From an uncultured Acidimicrobiaceae bacterium (GTDB taxonomy: Bacteria > Actinomycetota > Acidimicrobiia > Acidimicrobiales > SZUA-35), in contig CAMYLA010000007.1 of NCBI GenBank assembly GCA_947259095.1, forward strand, positions 25,601-89,600: a stretch of DNA of 64,000 bases, given 5' to 3'. A program made the position numbers and the translations under genes. The notes under the pieces are model-generated. The model searched no databases. It had not been told where the DNA came from and saw only the letters and a program-made list of their open reading frames with translations. Positions 7,396 to 50,984 of this stretch are shown here, piece by piece. Positions within the stretch are counted from its first letter, which is position 1, and every line of letters starts with the position of its first letter.

Positions 7396-8955
7396 CTACC
7401 GGGTTTCGAGGGTCTCCGTCGACGGCACGGTGGTCGTCACCAGTTGTCGCTCGGTGAAGAACACACCGATGGCGATGTCGCTCCCGCCAATGCGCCGCAA
7501 CTCCAGTTCCAACCTGGCGATGTCCGGTTGGCGGGACCCGGAGACGTCGAGTTCGACACGCTCGCCGTCGTAGTCGAAGGAGCGGACCACGACGTTGCGC
7601 TCGGCGGCCCACTGATCGATGACCACCCGCATGGCCTGCCCCGTCAGTTCGATCGGCGACGGTGCGGTCTCCTCGGTGATCGTGGCCAGCTTGGCCCAGT
7701 TCAAGCCGAGGGAAAGGCTGGAATCGATCTCGGCCAGGCGGGGCACCAGCAGGTCGATGTCCGGCGGCTCACCGGTGCCGGCGGCATCGATACGCACGAG
7801 GCTCCCGTCGAGGATGATGTCGTCGATCTGGTAGTCGAGGCCGCCCTCGTCAAGCCAGGCTTCGACCGCCAACCGGATCTCGGCCAGTAACTGCTCGGTT
7901 GGCTCCGGCGGTGGTTGGGTGGTCGTGGTTGCCGCCTCGGTTCGGATCCACTGGACCGGCACGTCGTAGCCGGGGAACTCGTCCTGCATGGCGGTCTCCA
8001 GCGAGCCCTGGTCCGGTGGGGCATCGAAGCCCCGAAGGTCGACGACGACCTGGCGGCTGTTGCGGCGGATGGTGACGGTCTTGTCCAGCTTGCCGTCGAG
8101 GTCGCCGAGCCAGGTGGTGACGATCTCCTCCGCGGTCCGCTGTTGGGTGTTGCGGTCGATCGACTCCACCGATGCCCGGTACAGCGGGACGGCCACCACG
8201 ATCACCGCCGCCACCATGGCCACGGTGGCCAGCGAGAACCGCAGCAGGTTGTCCGACAAGCGCCGCGGCGGGACGAACCCGGTCAACACGAACACCGCAA
8301 TGCTGGCGAAGACGATGGCGGTGAGGTTGGTCATGTAGAGCAGCAGGGCCCCGAACGCCAGGCTGTTCTCACCCGCCTCCAGCGCAATACCGACCGCCCC
8401 CAGCGGTGGCACCAGGGCGACGGCGACCGCCACGCCGGGCAATGATGCCGAGACGTCGGCCCGGACCGTGGCGTAGGCTCCGGCCGTGCCGGCGGCCAGG
8501 GCGACCACCAGGTCCTTGATGTCGGGCTGGGTCCGGGCCAGCACCTCGGGGGTCAGGTCGGTCTCGGGCAGGATCAGTGAGATCAGGTAGGCGATGGCGA
8601 TACACCACGCCGTGGCGGCGAAGACCCGACCCAGTGCGATCAACGACTTGGTGAACAGCGCCATCGACAAGCAGGCCCCGGCAGCCAGCACCGGCTGCAT
8701 CAGCGGGGCCAGCAGCATGGCACCGATCACGACGGCGGCCGAGTTGAGGCTGAGGCCCATCACCGCCACGATCACCGACAGGGTGAGCATGATGGTGAAG
8801 CGGAACGTCCAGTCCTCGACCTTGGTGACCGCCAGATCGGCCATGACCCGGCGCCGTTCCTCCGGTTCGAGACGGCGATGCCACCAGGCCCGGGTGGGGA
8901 GCGGTCTCGCTGGATCGCTGGCCGGTTTTGGCTGGGAGGTCTCGGTCGCCGACAC
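7396..8955 (-). CDS. DUF389 family integral membrane protein
   Basis: Multi-TM N-terminal half with LNSAAVVIGAMLLAPLMQPVLAAGACL and AGTAGAYATVRADVSASLPGVAVAVALVPPLGAVGIAL, typical of DUF389. GTG start with TAGACT 6 nt upstream. Confidence 0.85.
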   Translation of the reverse strand: MSATETSQPKPASDPARPLPTRAWWHRRLEPEERRRVMADLAVTKVEDWTFRFTIMLTLSVIVAVMGLSLNSAAVVIGAMLLAPLMQPVLAAGACLSMALFTKSLIALGRVFAATAWCIAIAYLISLILPETDLTPEVLARTQPDIKDLVVALAAGTAGAYATVRADVSASLPGVAVAVALVPPLGAVGIALEAGENSLAFGALLLYMTNLTAIVFASIAVFVLTGFVPPRRLSDNLLRFSLATVAMVAAVIVVAVPLYRASVESIDRNTQQRTAEEIVTTWLGDLDGKLDKTVTIRRNSRQVVVDLRGFDAPPDQGSLETAMQDEFPGYDVPVQWIRTEAATTTTQPPPEPTEQLLAEIRLAVEAWLDEGGLDYQIDDIILDGSLVRIDAAGTGEPPDIDLLVPRLAEIDSSLSLGLNWAKLATITEETAPSPIELTGQAMRVVIDQWAAERNVVVRSFDYDGERVELDVSGSRQPDIARLELELRRIGGSDIAIGVFFTERQLVTTTVPSTETLETR

Positions 8956-9097: not shown

Positions 9098-10342
9098 GTG
9101 AAGAGCATTCTTAGGGCCGCAACCGCCGACGGCGACGAGGCGTTCGCCCGAACCCTCGATGCCGCGGTTGGCGGCGATCCGGCGATGATCGCCGAGCTGA
9201 TCGGCGAGTTCGAGCCGGGGCAGAGCAGCTTCGCACGCCGTCAGGGGGCGGCAGACGTCGAGGGGGTGGTGAACACCACGCTCTCGGACGCATTCCGCAA
9301 CCTCGGGGCCTTCCGGGCCCGGGATCGCCGGGCCTTCCGGGCCTACCTCTACCGGATTCTCCGGTGTTTCGACGGCAGGACCGGCTCCCCCGACCTCCTG
9401 CCACCCGACGGCGACCAGTCGGGCGGCGCCGGTTCGGGTGCCCTGAGGCCGCTGGTGGTCGAGGCCGACGCCGATGGCAACGACAACCACGGCGCCGAGT
9501 CGCTCATGGTTGGGGCTGCAGCCAACGCCACCGTCGAACCGAGCGAACCGAGCGAACCGAGCGAACCGAGCCAGGGTGGCGCTGACACGGCCCAGTCGGG
9601 CCCGCCCCAATCGGCCCCACCGCCGCCGTCCGACCCGGACACACCGAAGCCGACAAAACCGGCGCCACCGGCCACCGGTGAGCAGGCCGGCAGCGCCGCG
9701 GCCGCAGTGGTCGAGCGACCCCCGCTCGACGTGCCGGTGGCGCCGCTCCCCGAGTCGATCGCCCGGACCCCGTGCTCGGTGATGACCGACGGTTCACCGG
9801 CGGTTGGCGAGATCGCCTTCGTCACCTTCGACTTCGACGGTCCCTTCCAGCTCTTCCGCGGCACCTCGGTCGACATCATCGGCCCGTCGAAGCGTTCCGC
9901 CCTGATCGAGGGTCTCGGCGATCCGTCATCGGTGAAGGACGGCCAACGGTTCCCGTTCGTGATCGGCGGCAACATGATGTGGGACAAGGGGTTTGCCGTG
10001 CAGACGCTGCTGGCCGGGGGCGAGGTCAAGACCCGGTGCTCCATCTCGGACCGGCGGGTCCCGGCCCCGTGCCGGATCATCACCGACGGCGCCCCGGCCA
10101 AGGGTGAGCGCGCCTCGGTGGCCTATCGGCTCCCCGGTCCCTATGCGCCGTTCAAGGGGCAGCAGACCCACATCATGGGGTGGGGCAGGAAATCGGTGAT
10201 GACCGACGGCTCCCCGGCCGTACTCCGGGCCGAGGTCAAGGCCGACTTCGAGATCGACGGTTTCATGTTCAAGGAAGGCCCGTTCCAGGTGAGGACGGCG
10301 CTGGCCGACGGTGCGGCTCACGCCGTCTGCGAGATTTCCTAG
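9098..10342 (+). CDS. Degenerate sigma-70 region-2-like domain fused through a Pro-rich linker to two tandem ~90-aa Cys-bounded repeats; function unknown
   Basis: DVEGVVNTTLSDAFRNLGAFRARDRRAFRAYLYRILR resembles ECF sigma region 2; PSEPSEPSEPS linker; C-terminal repeats CSVMTDGSPA...CSI and CRIITDGAPA...CEI. Start codon uncertain. Confidence 0.6.
   Translation: MKSILRAATADGDEAFARTLDAAVGGDPAMIAELIGEFEPGQSSFARRQGAADVEGVVNTTLSDAFRNLGAFRARDRRAFRAYLYRILRCFDGRTGSPDLLPPDGDQSGGAGSGALRPLVVEADADGNDNHGAESLMVGAAANATVEPSEPSEPSEPSQGGADTAQSGPPQSAPPPPSDPDTPKPTKPAPPATGEQAGSAAAAVVERPPLDVPVAPLPESIARTPCSVMTDGSPAVGEIAFVTFDFDGPFQLFRGTSVDIIGPSKRSALIEGLGDPSSVKDGQRFPFVIGGNMMWDKGFAVQTLLAGGEVKTRCSISDRRVPAPCRIITDGAPAKGERASVAYRLPGPYAPFKGQQTHIMGWGRKSVMTDGSPAVLRAEVKADFEIDGFMFKEGPFQVRTALADGAAHAVCEIS
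9539..9574 (+). repeat. In-frame 9-bp tandem repeat (GAACCGAGC)n encoding (EPS)n linker
   Basis: Visible repeat gaaccgagcgaaccgagcgaaccgagcgaaccgagc. Confidence 0.8.
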
Positions 10343-10509: not shown

Positions 10510-11325
10510 GTGGCATTCGTGCTCGAAGGACGTGCTCTCAAGGAGCACACGCTGAACCGCCTGGGCTACGGCCCGAGCGTCTGGCACTGGAACCGATACG
10601 ACGAGCTGGGGTTCCAGAGCTACGTCGATGAGCAGTTGGCCGGCACCCTGGCCGCCATCTCGCCGACCGCTGCGGCCACCGAACCCAAGTTCCGGCGGGC
10701 GGTCCTGGCCCGCCGTCAGCTCGAGGTGGTGCTGCTCGACTTCTGGTTCAACCACTTCAACGTCGACGCCGGTGGCGGCATCGCGGAGCGAACCGTCGAC
10801 CAGCATCAGGGAGCCATCCAGAGCCATCTGTTCGGCCGGTTCTCCGACATGCTGCTGGCCACCGCCCGGTCGCCGGCCATGCTCGATTACCTCGACAACC
10901 GGATCAACTACGAGGAGGAGGTCGTCAACGGTCGGGTCTACGGCCTCAACGAGAACTACGCCCGGGAGCTGATGGAGTTGCACACCCTGGGCGTCGACGG
11001 GGGTTACAGCGAGGCCGACATCATCGAGGTGGCCAGGGTGCTGACCGGTTGGTCGGTGTCCAGCGATGCCTACAGCTTCAAGCGCAGCCGCCACGACGGT
11101 GGCCAGAAGGTGGTCATGGGGGCAACCTTCCCGGCGGGCCGGGAGGAGGAGGAAGGGGTCGAGCTGCTGAACATGCTGGCCGCCCACCCCTCGACGGCAT
11201 CGTTCCTCAGCCGCAAGCTCTGCCGCCGGTTCGTCTCCGAGGATCCGCCCCCGGCGGCGGTCGACGCCGCCGCTGCGACCTTCACCTCCTCCGGCGGCAA
11301 CCTCGGCGACACGGTTCGCCGGTGA
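10510..11325 (+). CDS. DUF1800 family protein; C-terminus apparently frameshifted
   Basis: LNRLGYGPS, FWFNHFNVD, LDNRIN...LNENYARELMELHTLGVDGGYSEADIIEVARVLTGW and FLSRKLCRRFVSEDPP match DUF1800. GTG at 10510 or 10519 possible. Confidence 0.75.
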   Translation: MAFVLEGRALKEHTLNRLGYGPSVWHWNRYDELGFQSYVDEQLAGTLAAISPTAAATEPKFRRAVLARRQLEVVLLDFWFNHFNVDAGGGIAERTVDQHQGAIQSHLFGRFSDMLLATARSPAMLDYLDNRINYEEEVVNGRVYGLNENYARELMELHTLGVDGGYSEADIIEVARVLTGWSVSSDAYSFKRSRHDGGQKVVMGATFPAGREEEEGVELLNMLAAHPSTASFLSRKLCRRFVSEDPPPAAVDAAAATFTSSGGNLGDTVRR

Positions 11326-11388
11326 CGCCCGGATCACCGCCGCCGCCGAGGCCATCCTGTCCAGCCCCGAGTTCGTGAGGTTCTAGCA

Positions 11389-13626
11389 ATGACGATCAAC
11401 CTGCTCTCCCCGAACCGGGGCCGGACCCGGTTGTCCGGCGACGCCGAGTCGGGCGGCTCGGCCCTGTTCTCCCGCCGCCAGATGCTGGCCGGCATGATGG
11501 GCGCCGGCGTGGTGACCATCATCGGGACCTCCCCCATGGCCGGCGCCCTGCGAGCGCTGGCCGTGCCCGGCGATGCCGACGATCGTGTGCTGGTGAACGT
11601 CTTCCTACGGGGCGGGGCCGATGGCCTCAACATCGTTGTCCCCCACGGCGACGACGACTACTACCGGCTGCGTCGTTCCATCGCCCAGCCCCGCAACTCG
11701 CTGTCGGACCTGGACGGCTTCTTCGGTCTCCACCAGTCCTTCGCCCCGCTGTACCCCCTGTACCAGAGCGGCGAGCTGGCCTTTGTCCACGCCACCGGCA
11801 GCAACGACCGGACCCGCTCCCACTTCTCGGCCATGGACAATATGGATCTGGCCTTCGGGAGCACCGGCTGGATGCAGCGTGCGTTGGCCTCGCAGAATGA
11901 TCGCGACCCACTGTCGGGCCTGACCATCGGCGATCGCACCGCCCCGTCGCTGCGTGGACCGAGCAGCGGGATTGCCATCGACAGGCTGAACTCGTTCCGG
12001 CAGTCCACCACTGCGCTCGGCGACATGCGCCAGGCGGTGGAGGCGATGTACGGGGCCTCCGGCGATCCCCTCACCGGGGAGGCCACGCTTCGGGCTTTCA
12101 CCTCGATCGACGCCCTGGCCGGGGTGACGGTGGACCCTGCGGTCCAGTACCCGAGTTCCTCCTTCGCCCGAGATCTCCGGGAGGCGGCGGCCCTGATCAA
12201 GGCCGACCTCGGGGTCAGGATGGTCAGCGTCAGCATCGGCGGCTGGGACCACCACAGCGACACGGTGCCCAGAATGCAGGCAAAGGGTGACCAGCTGGCC
12301 GCGGCCCTGGCCGCCTTCAAGGCCGATCTCGGCGACCAGGGCGGTCGGGTGCTGACCGTGGTCATGTCGGAGTTCGGGCGAACCGCCAAGGAGAACGGCA
12401 GCGGCGGGACCGACCACGGCCACGGCAACATGATGATGGTCATGGGCGGCGGGATGAGCGGGGCCGGCGGCGGCCGGGTCCATGTCCGGGACAATGCCTG
12501 GGTCGGCCTGTCGGAGAACCAGTTGAACGACGGGCGGGACCTGGCCATCACCACCGACTTCCGATCGGTGCTGGCCGAGCTGCTCGAGGGTCACATGGGC
12601 ATCGTCAACGGCCAGATCTTTCCCCGCTTCACCCCTCGCTATCTCGGGTTGCTGTCGGCGGGCACCACGCCACCGACCACCGCTCCGACCACCCCCACCA
12701 CCGCTCCGACCACCCCCACCACCGCGACCACCGCCCCGGGCTCGTCCACCACGGCCGGCCCGAGCACCACCGCCGGATCGTCCACCACGGAGGGGCCGAC
12801 AACGACCGCGGGGGCCAGAACCACCGTCCTGGCCTCGACCACGGTGGCCTCGACCCGACCGTCGACCACGGGCCCGAGCACCACCGGGCCGTCGACCACG
12901 GGACCGGCGACGGCCGGCCCCAGCACCACCGGCCCAACCACAACCGGCCCGAGCACCACTCGCCCCGGCACCACCGGCCCAACCACCACCGGCCGTCGTA
13001 CGACCACCACGCTGCCACCCGAAGCACGGGGTTCGATCGCCGGCGTCGTCACCTACGTCGGCGGAGGAACGGCCGCCGGGGTCAAGATCGACCTGTTCAG
13101 AGCGGTCGACGGCAAACGCAACGGGTACCTGGGAACCGCCTCCACCGATGCCGACGGCGCCTATCGTTTCACCGCCGAACCGGGGCCCCACATCCTCACC
13201 TTCATCGCACCGGATGGCGACGGGTTCGTGGCGGCACGGGGCCGGTACCACCAGCCGTCGGTCATGGTCGAGGCCGGCAAGACCTCGAGTGGCATCAACG
13301 GTCGACTGTTGGGCTCCAGCTTCGGCGACAGCTCGACCGTGGGCGGCACGATCGCCATCACCGGTGGTCGGCCTGTGGCCGAGATCCAGGTCGATCTGTT
13401 CATGGCATCGGCCGACGGTTCCCGATCGGAGTTCCTCAACACCACCAAGACCAACAGCGACGGTCGGTACCGTTTCGTGATCCCCGCCGGCTGCTACGTG
13501 CTGACCATGATCGCCCCCGACGGTCGGCGTTTCGAAAACGGTCGCCGTTGGCATCAGCCGATGACCAGCGTCGAACCGCGCCAAGCGGTGGTTGATCTCG
13601 ACGCCACACTACAGTCGCCGACCTAG
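11389..13626 (+). CDS. DUF1501 family secreted (Tat) protein with Thr/Pro-rich stalk and two C-terminal beta-sandwich (CNA-B/SdrD-B-like) repeats
   Basis: SRRQMLAGMMGAGVVTIIG Tat-like leader; LRGGADGLNIVVPHGDDDYYRLR and VMSEFGRTAKENGSGGTDHGHG of DUF1501; long TTGPSTTGPS tract; two DxxGxYRF-type repeats. Confidence 0.85.
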   Translation: MTINLLSPNRGRTRLSGDAESGGSALFSRRQMLAGMMGAGVVTIIGTSPMAGALRALAVPGDADDRVLVNVFLRGGADGLNIVVPHGDDDYYRLRRSIAQPRNSLSDLDGFFGLHQSFAPLYPLYQSGELAFVHATGSNDRTRSHFSAMDNMDLAFGSTGWMQRALASQNDRDPLSGLTIGDRTAPSLRGPSSGIAIDRLNSFRQSTTALGDMRQAVEAMYGASGDPLTGEATLRAFTSIDALAGVTVDPAVQYPSSSFARDLREAAALIKADLGVRMVSVSIGGWDHHSDTVPRMQAKGDQLAAALAAFKADLGDQGGRVLTVVMSEFGRTAKENGSGGTDHGHGNMMMVMGGGMSGAGGGRVHVRDNAWVGLSENQLNDGRDLAITTDFRSVLAELLEGHMGIVNGQIFPRFTPRYLGLLSAGTTPPTTAPTTPTTAPTTPTTATTAPGSSTTAGPSTTAGSSTTEGPTTTAGARTTVLASTTVASTRPSTTGPSTTGPSTTGPATAGPSTTGPTTTGPSTTRPGTTGPTTTGRRTTTTLPPEARGSIAGVVTYVGGGTAAGVKIDLFRAVDGKRNGYLGTASTDADGAYRFTAEPGPHILTFIAPDGDGFVAARGRYHQPSVMVEAGKTSSGINGRLLGSSFGDSSTVGGTIAITGGRPVAEIQVDLFMASADGSRSEFLNTTKTNSDGRYRFVIPAGCYVLTMIAPDGRRFENGRRWHQPMTSVEPRQAVVDLDATLQSPT

Positions 13627-47883: not shown

Positions 47884-49620
47884 ATGCACGATCTCGCGAT
47901 TCGAAACGGCCTGGTGGTGGACGGCACCGGGGCATCGGCCCGCACCGCCGATGTGGCCATCACCGACGGTGTGATCGTGGCGGTCGGCGACGACGTCGGA
48001 CCGGCAAGCCGGGAGATCGATGCCGACGGCGCCCTCGTCACCCCTGGGTTCGTCGACGTCCACACCCACTACGACGGTCAGGCGACCTGGGATCCGGAGC
48101 TGACCCCATCATCGTGGCACGGCGTCACCACCACCGTGTTCGGGAACTGCGGCGTCGGGTTCGCCCCGGCCCGGCCAGACGAGCACGACTGGCTGATCCA
48201 GCTGATGGAAGGGGTCGAGGACATCCCCGGTGCGGCACTGGCCGACGGGATCGACTGGCGCTGGGAGACCTTCCCCCAATACCTGGACGCGCTGGAGCTC
48301 ATGCCCCGGGTGATGGACATCGCAACGCAGGTTCCCCACGGATCGGTTCGAGGCTACGTGATGGGGGAGCGGGGAGCCCGCAACGAGGACCCGACCGACG
48401 AGGAACTGCGGGCCATGGCCGACATCGTGGCCGAAGGTGTCCGGGCCGGTGCGCTGGGATTCACGACGTCTCGGACCATGCTCCATCGGGCGCTCGATGG
48501 TGAGCCCGTGCCGGGAACCTTCGCCGGTGAGGAGGAGATCCGGGCCCTGGGTCTGGCGGTCGCCGAGGCCGGTGGTGGGGTCGTCGAGGTTGCGTCCGAC
48601 ATCGGGCTCGGTGGGCTGGAGGGCCGGTTCGGCAACGACGTTGCCTGGATGCGGGACCTGGCACGCCGGCACGGGCTGACCGTGACCTACGCCCTGACCC
48701 AGGCCGATCGCCACCCCGACCAGTGGCGGGACCTGCTGGAATTGTCGGCTGCTCCGATCGATGGCGACGGTCGGGTCGTGGCCCAGGTTGCCGGCCGTCC
48801 GGCCGGACTGCTGCTGGGGTTGGAAACGTCGCTCCACCCGTTCAAGGAGCACCCCACCTACAAGGCGCTGGCCGATCTGCCGCTGGCCGACCGGGTGAGC
48901 CGGTTGCGCGAGCCCCAGGTCAAAGCGGCCATCCTGGCCGAGCAGTCCGAGTTCACCGGTCGGTTCAACCACGACATCGTCCACGGCTTCCACAAGATGT
49001 ACCCCCTCGGCGATGAGCCGAACTACGAGCCGTCACCGGATCAGTGCATCGCCGGATTGGCCGACGCGGCGGGGATCGACCCATACGAACTGGCATACGA
49101 CACATTGCTTGGCGACGAAGGTCGGGCGATGCTGTTCTTCCCCCTGACCGACTTCTCCGAGCACAGCCTCAACCCGACCCTGGAACGGCTCCGTCATCAT
49201 GGTGCGTTCCTGTCGCTCAGTGACGGCGGCGCCCACTGCCGACTGATCTGCGATGCGTCCACCCCCACGTTCATGCTCAGCCACTGGACCCGGGACCGAC
49301 GGAACGGCCCGAAGCTGGCCATCGAGGAGGCGGTCAAGCTCCAGACCCTCGACACCGCAGCGATCTACGGTCTCGGCGACCGTGGCACCCTGGAGGTCGG
49401 CAAGAAGGGCGACGTGAACGTCATCGACTACGACGGCCTGCGGCTCGGCCCGCCCCGGATGACCTACGATCTGCCGACCGGGGCGCCCCGGCTGTTGCAG
49501 AAGGCCGAGGGCTACCTGGCAACGATCGTCTCGGGCCAGGTCACCTGGCGGGACGGCGAGGCCACCGGGGCCCGGCCCGGTGTGTTGGTTCGAGGTCGCC
49601 GCCGCCGGCCGAGCGGCTAG
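47884..49620 (+). CDS. Amidohydrolase family protein (N-acyl-D-amino-acid deacylase-like)
   Basis: [58 protein letters not shown]. Confidence 0.9.
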
Positions 49621-50984
49621 GCGGACCGAATGTCGCCGTTGCCGGCGACGCTCATCGCCTCGGCCCCTTCGATCAACGGGAAGTGGCAGGCCACGTAGTG
49701 CTCGACGCCGACCTGGCGGATCGTCGGTTCCTCGGCGGCGCAACGATCGGTCGCCCGAGGGCAACGGGTCCGGAACCGACAGCCGCTCGGCGGGGCGATC
49801 GGTGATGGCAACTCGCCCTCCACCGCCTCGATCTGTCGCTGGTCGATGAGCGGGTCGGGAATCGGGATGGAGGAGATGAGCGCCGAGCTGTAGGGGTGGG
49901 CCGGGTTGGCGTAGAGCTCGTCCGGTCTGGCGACCTCGCAGATCTTGCCAAGATACATCACGGCCACCCGATCCGAGATGTTCTTCACCACCGCCAGATC
50001 GTGGGAGATGAACACCATGGTCAGCCCGTAGGCCTTCTTCATCGTCTCCAGAAGGTTGAGGATCTGGGCCTGGACCGACACGTCGAGCGCCGACACCGGC
50101 TCGTCGCAGATCAGCACTTTTGGGTCCAGGGTCAGGGCCCGGGCGATACAGATCCGTTGGGCCTGTCCGCCGGAGAACTCATGGGGTCGCTTGTCAAGGG
50201 CCACGTCCGGGTCGAGGCCGACGGTGGAGAGGACCTCCCGGACCTTGGTCTCGGCGTCCGACCAGAACCGTTGGGAGTCGCGACGCTTCCTCACGTACCG
50301 GGGTACGGCCATGATCGGGATGGCGATCCCAAGGCCAAGCCAGATCAGCGCCGTCACCGCAAAAACGACGGCGAACGGGGTGGCAACGACCAGCGCCGGC
50401 GCCCAGACGATGGCCGACAGGTCGGTCAACCAGTCAAGCGGTGAGCTCTCACCGATGATCCACAGCAGGATGCCGACCGCCAGGGCGATCAGCACGAACC
50501 GGAACCAGTGCCAGAGCCGGCGCCACAGCGGTACCAGCAGGCGGACGTAGCGCTCCCACAGCACCGACACCTTGGAGCGGCCGAGGCCTTCCAACCACTG
50601 GATGACCAGCGGCTCGGCCACGATCTCGCGGATGGTCCGGCGGGGATTGAGCGAGGACGTCGGGTCCTGGAAGATCATCTGCATCTTGGAGCGGATGTCT
50701 CGGATGTCCTCGTTGCCGAACCCGGTGAGGTCCTGGGCATCGAGCAGTACCGAGCCCGAGGTGGGGGCCGGGACCTGCATCATGGCCCGACCGGTCGTGG
50801 TCTTGCCGCAGCCGGATTCACCGACCAGTCCCAGCGTCTCCCCGTCTCGGATGTCGATGCTGACGTCGGACACCGCGTGGACCTTCAGGCCGGTGTTGCC
50901 GACCGGGAACTCCACCACCATGTGCTCGACCCGGACCACGGCGTCCTCGGGGTCCCGGAGATGTGCCTGACCGCTTCCCGCCAT
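49617..50984 (-). CDS. Dipeptide/oligopeptide ABC transporter ATPase (OppF/DppF-like) with internal transmembrane insertion
   Basis: Walker A GESGCGKTT, Q-loop IFQDPTSSLNP, signature EFSGGQAQRI, Walker B VLICDEPVSALD, OppF-type Cys tail. Insertion of ~110 aa with hydrophobic helices (about residues 135-245). Confidence 0.88.
   Translation of the reverse strand: MAGSGQAHLRDPEDAVVRVEHMVVEFPVGNTGLKVHAVSDVSIDIRDGETLGLVGESGCGKTTTGRAMMQVPAPTSGSVLLDAQDLTGFGNEDIRDIRSKMQMIFQDPTSSLNPRRTIREIVAEPLVIQWLEGLGRSKVSVLWERYVRLLVPLWRRLWHWFRFVLIALAVGILLWIIGESSPLDWLTDLSAIVWAPALVVATPFAVVFAVTALIWLGLGIAIPIMAVPRYVRKRRDSQRFWSDAETKVREVLSTVGLDPDVALDKRPHEFSGGQAQRICIARALTLDPKVLICDEPVSALDVSVQAQILNLLETMKKAYGLTMVFISHDLAVVKNISDRVAVMYLGKICEVARPDELYANPAHPYSSALISSIPIPDPLIDQRQIEAVEGELPSPIAPPSGCRFRTRCPRATDRCAAEEPTIRQVGVEHYVACHFPLIEGAEAMSVAGNGDIRSA

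Follow-up and report, generated by a model that had tools for sequence, protein, structure and literature searches.

What is the role of a bacterial gene that encodes sigma-70 region 2 without region 4, and joins it to a pair of domains of an exported kind? The question is raised by a 414-codon open reading frame in the window, as we call the whole 64,000-nucleotide stretch of DNA analysed here. The initial annotation described a degenerate region 2 in an unfamiliar architecture, and hesitated between a repurposed sigma relic and a regulator. We give a probability of roughly 0.55 to the first option in a more precise form: the gene would be the relic of a membrane-tethered extracytoplasmic function (ECF) sigma factor, lying in a decaying sigma/DUF1800/DUF1501 locus.

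The reading frame begins with GTG and remains open throughout, with a codon-position GC content that is gene-like from end to end. The predicted protein consists of an N-terminal sigma-70 region 2, a Pro/(EPS)n linker and two Cys-bounded repeats of about 90 residues (Table 1), and the linker and repeats are as first annotated. Searches of Pfam and NCBIfam returned no family above cut-off, the C-terminal half being blank in Pfam, and PHROGs gave no match. No relative was found in the plasmid records searched or in a genome-contig scan using the whole protein as query. An AlphaFold model of the full-length protein, computed without alignment, is too poor to be of use (pLDDT 39); it places helices in region 2 and strands in the repeats.

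Table 1. Features of the sigma/DUF1800/DUF1501 locus (window positions)
Feature	Position	Strand	Remarks
Gene under study	9098..10342	+	414 aa; truncated ECF sigma / outer-domain fusion
Sigma-70 region 2.1-2.3, residues 12-89	9131..9364	+	57-58% identity to intact fusion L003/L032
Lesion	9363..9380	+	~16 nt missing vs L003 (RRIADE codons)
Pro/acidic/(EPS)4 linker	9380..9769	+	
Cys-bounded repeat 1, P225-I316	9770..10045	+	predicted all-beta
Cys-bounded repeat 2, P324-I413	10067..10336	+	
DUF1800 gene, truncated	10518..11325	+	Pfam positions 1-282 of 419, then stop
Likely DUF1800 C-terminal end (RFAGDARITAAAEAILSSPEFVRF*)	11312..11386	+	other frame; out-of-frame internal deletion
DUF1501 gene	11389..13626	+	DUF1501 part intact; two SdrD/CNA-B-like domains

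Identification of the N-terminus as a sigma domain comes from its relatives. The Pfam Sigma70_r2 model reaches 15.8 bits over residues 50-89 (17.8 for the N-terminal part alone), below its cut-off of 24 bits, and the sigma match in NCBIfam is also weak and below cut-off. A profile of the relatives, built with the protein itself excluded, matches residues ~12-89 at E = 2e-20 (70 bits in another run). In leave-one-out comparisons the protein scores 73-88 bits, inside the range of 56-89 bits covered by intact members, and "degenerate" is therefore the wrong word: regions 2.1-2.3 are present and as well conserved as in intact members, region 2.4 is absent, and the domain is truncated after region 2.3. 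Over region 2, the identity to the intact fusion L003 (a gene in locus L032) compares with 31-40% to the other members, and L003 itself shares 24-39% with those.

The relatives also reveal the layout from which the gene departs. A first search in 60 related genomes gave many matches to residues 12-89, several of them in long reading frames of the same genus; further members were found with a profile spanning region 2 to the transmembrane (TM) helix, and their loci were fetched. The 27 intact relatives thus gathered, from nine sister genomes of the same uncultured Acidimicrobiales lineage, all combine ECF regions 2 and 4, a single TM helix, a Pro/Thr/acidic linker and a variable C-terminal domain. 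In all of them region 4 leads directly into the helix (Kyte-Doolittle 1.85-2.94), and Pfam recognises region 4 in each of the 19 intact relatives scanned. Their outer domains are of RTX, ricin-B lectin, pentapeptide, DUF642 and other or unrecognised types. Pfam detected no zinc-finger or other anti-sigma domain in 20 relatives scanned, and no zinc-finger match in the protein under study. Across the order, 118 scanned genomes yielded ordinary ECF factors and no further match through the TM part, and a genome-contig scan with a tight RTX-type alignment placed the RTX type, among GenBank MAGs, only in Acidimicrobiales or unassigned actinobacteria. Among the sigma-like reading frames scanned in the window genome, the gene is the only member of the fused family, and none of the 24 others has a hydrophobic segment after region 4.

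Set against the 27 relatives in which regions 2 and 4 are immediately followed by a single TM helix, the protein has neither of the last two elements, as the initial annotation had recognised. Pfam and profile searches found no region 4 in its reading frame or in the other frames just downstream, and its best 19-residue Kyte-Doolittle mean is 0.96. Region 2.4, region 4 and the TM helix, all present in every intact relative, are absent on the upstream side of the linker. At this junction the DNA follows L003 in frame up to ATTCTCCG, after which L003 has its RRIADE codons and then TTTCGACGACAGG. In the window, positions 9367-9379 (TTTCGACGGCAGG) match the FRRQ codons of L003 at 12 of 13 nucleotides, out of frame. 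When both strands of the 64 kb are searched with at most one mismatch allowed, this 13-mer has a single occurrence (0.09 expected), and we estimate the chance of such a match at the exact spot of the lesion at about 3e-5. The displaced stretch is explained by two losses, one of ~16 nt that shifted the frame and then a larger one that restored it. A multiple alignment also suggested a scrambled trace of region 4 at residues ~117-145; it has no profile support and we do not claim it.

The part that follows the lesion is of an extracytoplasmic kind. The two repeats share 35% identity, and a profile made from the five repeats of one secreted protein of genome G010 matches both of them (29.2 bits for the protein; the best of 200 shuffled sequences reached 5.4 bits). 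Five copies of the same repeat are found in proteins of 805-814 residues, only in G000, G006, G008 and G010 among 39 genomes of the family, and L006, the one read over its whole length, has a signal-like hydrophobic helix at its N-terminus. Since the repeats recur in signal-peptide-bearing proteins, those of the window protein represent an exported-type outer domain. Pfam/NCBIfam and PHROGs hold nothing for them; an AlphaFold model of one repeat is all-beta at low confidence (pLDDT 58), and its best PDB matches, mostly Ig-like sandwiches at a TM-score of ~0.4, are only suggestive of an Ig-like fold. When the linker was compared with the post-TM linkers of relatives, 2 of 11 comparisons exceeded the 95% shuffle level and none exceeded all shuffles. 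Common descent with the fusion family is supported by the homologous region 2 and by a layout of linker plus exported-type C-terminal domain. On the nucleotide level, a 29-nt near-repeat (90%) encoding SVMTDGSPAV does not keep to the repeat unit: its copy at 9776-9804 opens repeat 1, but the one at 10193-10221 lies midway through repeat 2.

The damage extends to the neighbouring gene. The sigma-like gene had been placed directly upstream of a DUF1800/DUF1501 pair, and it does end 175 nt before the likely DUF1800 start; what escaped the first reading is that DUF1800 is itself broken. Just past its premature stop, another frame encodes AILSSPEFVRF*, which resembles the ends of DUF1800 proteins. 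The two other DUF1800 genes of the window genome are full length, and among the genes sampled elsewhere in the window, most of those with strong Pfam matches span the model in full. The sigma and DUF1800 genes bear the brunt of the damage, which seems confined to this locus. The DUF1501 protein carries a long Thr/Pro linker ahead of its two C-terminal SdrD/CNA-B-like domains.

Co-occurrence with this pair, whose examination had been proposed, is real for one subtype and is not general. Four of the five RTX-type fusions (L110, L112, L119 and L120, in four genomes) lie, intact, directly after DUF1800-DUF1501 on the same strand, and no such sigma gene was present within the stretch fetched around the other nearest DUF1501 loci examined. 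The sigma gene comes first in the window and last in these four relatives, and the outer domain differs too. Elsewhere, DUF1800/DUF1501 pairs have been associated with operons for chitin synthase, and Tat export is predicted for DUF1501 (PMC5122149); in the window, DUF1800 is broken. In the DNA ahead of the fusions and of DUF1800, canonical ECF promoter motifs are no commoner than chance would give (1 of 21, against 1.7 expected).

Taken as the relic of a tethered sigma factor, the gene would descend from an ancestor that had regions 2 and 4 inside the cell and, beyond a single TM helix, an external linker and sensor domain. In the intact relatives, the most likely signal for the outer domain is a surface or polymer ligand. 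Cleavage by a protease at or close to the TM helix would then release the sigma domain, which would switch on a few surface or secretion genes; this model follows ECF52 and IutY, and for release by proteolysis also RsgI. In the window genome, internal deletions would have removed everything from region 2.4 to the TM helix, so that region 2.1-2.3 now leads, still in frame, into the outer linker and the pair of outer domains. A protein lacking region 4 could not recognise a -35 element, and with neither TM helix nor signal peptide its outer domains would stay in the cytoplasm. Lacking both the -35-binding domain and the tether, it is most likely an inactive relic and probably no longer works as a gene switch.

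Several observations favour this reading. All 27 long relatives have regions 2 and 4 and the TM helix, the gene is the sole member in its genome, its repeats are extracytoplasmic in kind, its DNA resumes out of frame relative to L003 after region 2.3, and the adjoining DUF1800 gene has an internal frame-breaking deletion of its own among otherwise whole sampled genes. The relic option of the initial annotation is thereby favoured, the closest relatives being complete ECF factors and the DNA lesions visible, and the architecture, unfamiliar as read, makes sense when region 4 and the TM helix are seen to have been lost. Against it stand the open frame of 414 codons, the conserved region 2 and the codon-position bias kept to the end, so that either the decay is recent or something is still under selection. 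L135, another long relative in which region 4 is lacking, also speaks against it, since such a loss may be tolerated. No intact orthologue carrying the same repeats was found in the related genomes, the family genomes or the contig scan; the ancestor is therefore reconstructed and not seen.

An assembly fault could produce a similar picture: the true gene would be an intact sigma-TM-outer-domain fusion beside an intact DUF1800, a few hundred bases having been lost when the contig was built. Two separate coding deletions at a distance of 2 kb, each of which seems to have taken out a few hundred bases and spared both flanks, suit this explanation, as do the draft state of the assembly (229 contigs, 7.1% contamination), the local GC-rich inverted repeats and the lack of visible decay in region 2. 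The sampled genes elsewhere in the window look whole, however, and the sigma lesion is apparently composite, a ~16-nt frameshift with a larger frame-restoring loss, for which the collapse of a simple gap is insufficient. We regard such a fault as unlikely.

That the protein works as it stands, as a cytoplasmic region-2-only factor docking on the RNA polymerase beta-prime clamp as decoy or modulator, with its beta domains as an internal binding module, is quite unlikely. Its region 2 and repeats are conserved and in frame, and a second long relative without recognisable region 4 exists in another genus (L135, G017:C75:75528-77033, minus strand, 502 aa), so that loss of region 4 may be tolerated; yet L135 keeps its TM helix, and the repeats belong to exported proteins although they would here be cytoplasmic. 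Furthermore, no orthologue of such a layout was found in the related genomes, with the family profile or in the contig scan, the neighbouring DUF1800 is broken, and an out-of-frame DNA remnant marks the truncation. A regulatory role, as first considered, is possible, but a cytoplasmic protein with region 2 only and an extracytoplasmic-type domain is hard to see working. We hold it very improbable that the window protein and L135 represent a functional class that docks on RNA polymerase, former activators which, having lost region 4, became decoys or inhibitors linked to a ligand-binding domain. Finally, a chance resemblance of the N-terminus to sigma, suggested by the Pfam and NCBIfam scores below cut-off, is refuted by the match to a true ECF sigma profile that excludes the protein and by its identity to a bona fide ECF region 2, and has a negligible probability.

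The intact family is a variation on the theme of ECF48, ECF52 and ECF53, and a little-described kind of sigma factor. ECF52 (SCO4117 of Streptomyces coelicolor), ECF48 and ECF53 are actinobacterial ECF factors with C-terminal TM segment(s), and ECF52 has a Pro-rich linker and an outer carbohydrate-binding domain, with proteolytic activation proposed (PMC5826349, PMC8999054). The relatives likewise are ECF factors with a C-terminal TM helix, and have a linker and an outer domain, as ECF52 does. These three groups carry a zinc-finger, anti-sigma-like domain between sigma and membrane, whereas none of the 20 scanned relatives has one, their TM helix starts at the end of region 4 and their outer domains vary widely; the window protein is without region 4, C-terminal TM helix and zinc finger. 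In IutY (ECF243) of Pseudomonas putida, sigma and membrane part also share a single polypeptide, activated by regulated proteolysis (PMC8999054), but its extension is a fused anti-sigma factor, of which none was seen in the relatives. The RsgI anti-sigma factors of Clostridium thermocellum resemble the relatives in their TM helix and in substrate-sensing parts that differ among the nine RsgI proteins, with release by intramembrane cleavage (PMC12203970); RsgI is a separate anti-sigma protein, whereas in the relatives the sigma factor itself bears the TM helix and outer domain.

The relic thus points to a lineage-restricted set of sigma factors with seemingly complete signalling on one polypeptide, from a sensor outside through the membrane to sigma inside. 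If confirmed, the family would be about the simplest conceivable switch from outside to promoter, no anti-sigma domain being seen in between. Its freely varying sensors (lectins, RTX, pentapeptide repeats, DUF642 and others) make it well suited to studying how a sigma factor pinned to the membrane is held off and released.

Further variants were encountered on the way. Two more sigma-TM fusions, L136 (G010:C303) and one on G010:C373, are split by apparent frameshifts, so that members of the family may be easily disrupted or misassembled. L135 has a region-2-like N-terminus and a long Pro/Thr linker; by eye its C-terminal domain resembles crystallin/I36, and Pfam gives no match. In the window genome itself, the fused layout occurs in split form at L039 (G000:C63, sigma reading frame near 7627-8139), where an ECF sigma gene stands on its own and the next reading frame encodes a TM protein with RTX-type repeats. 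Elsewhere in the window, an oligopeptide ABC transporter ATPase (49620-50984, minus strand) has an ABC match extending over 259 residues for 135 profile positions, a span that suggests an insertion of ~120 residues.
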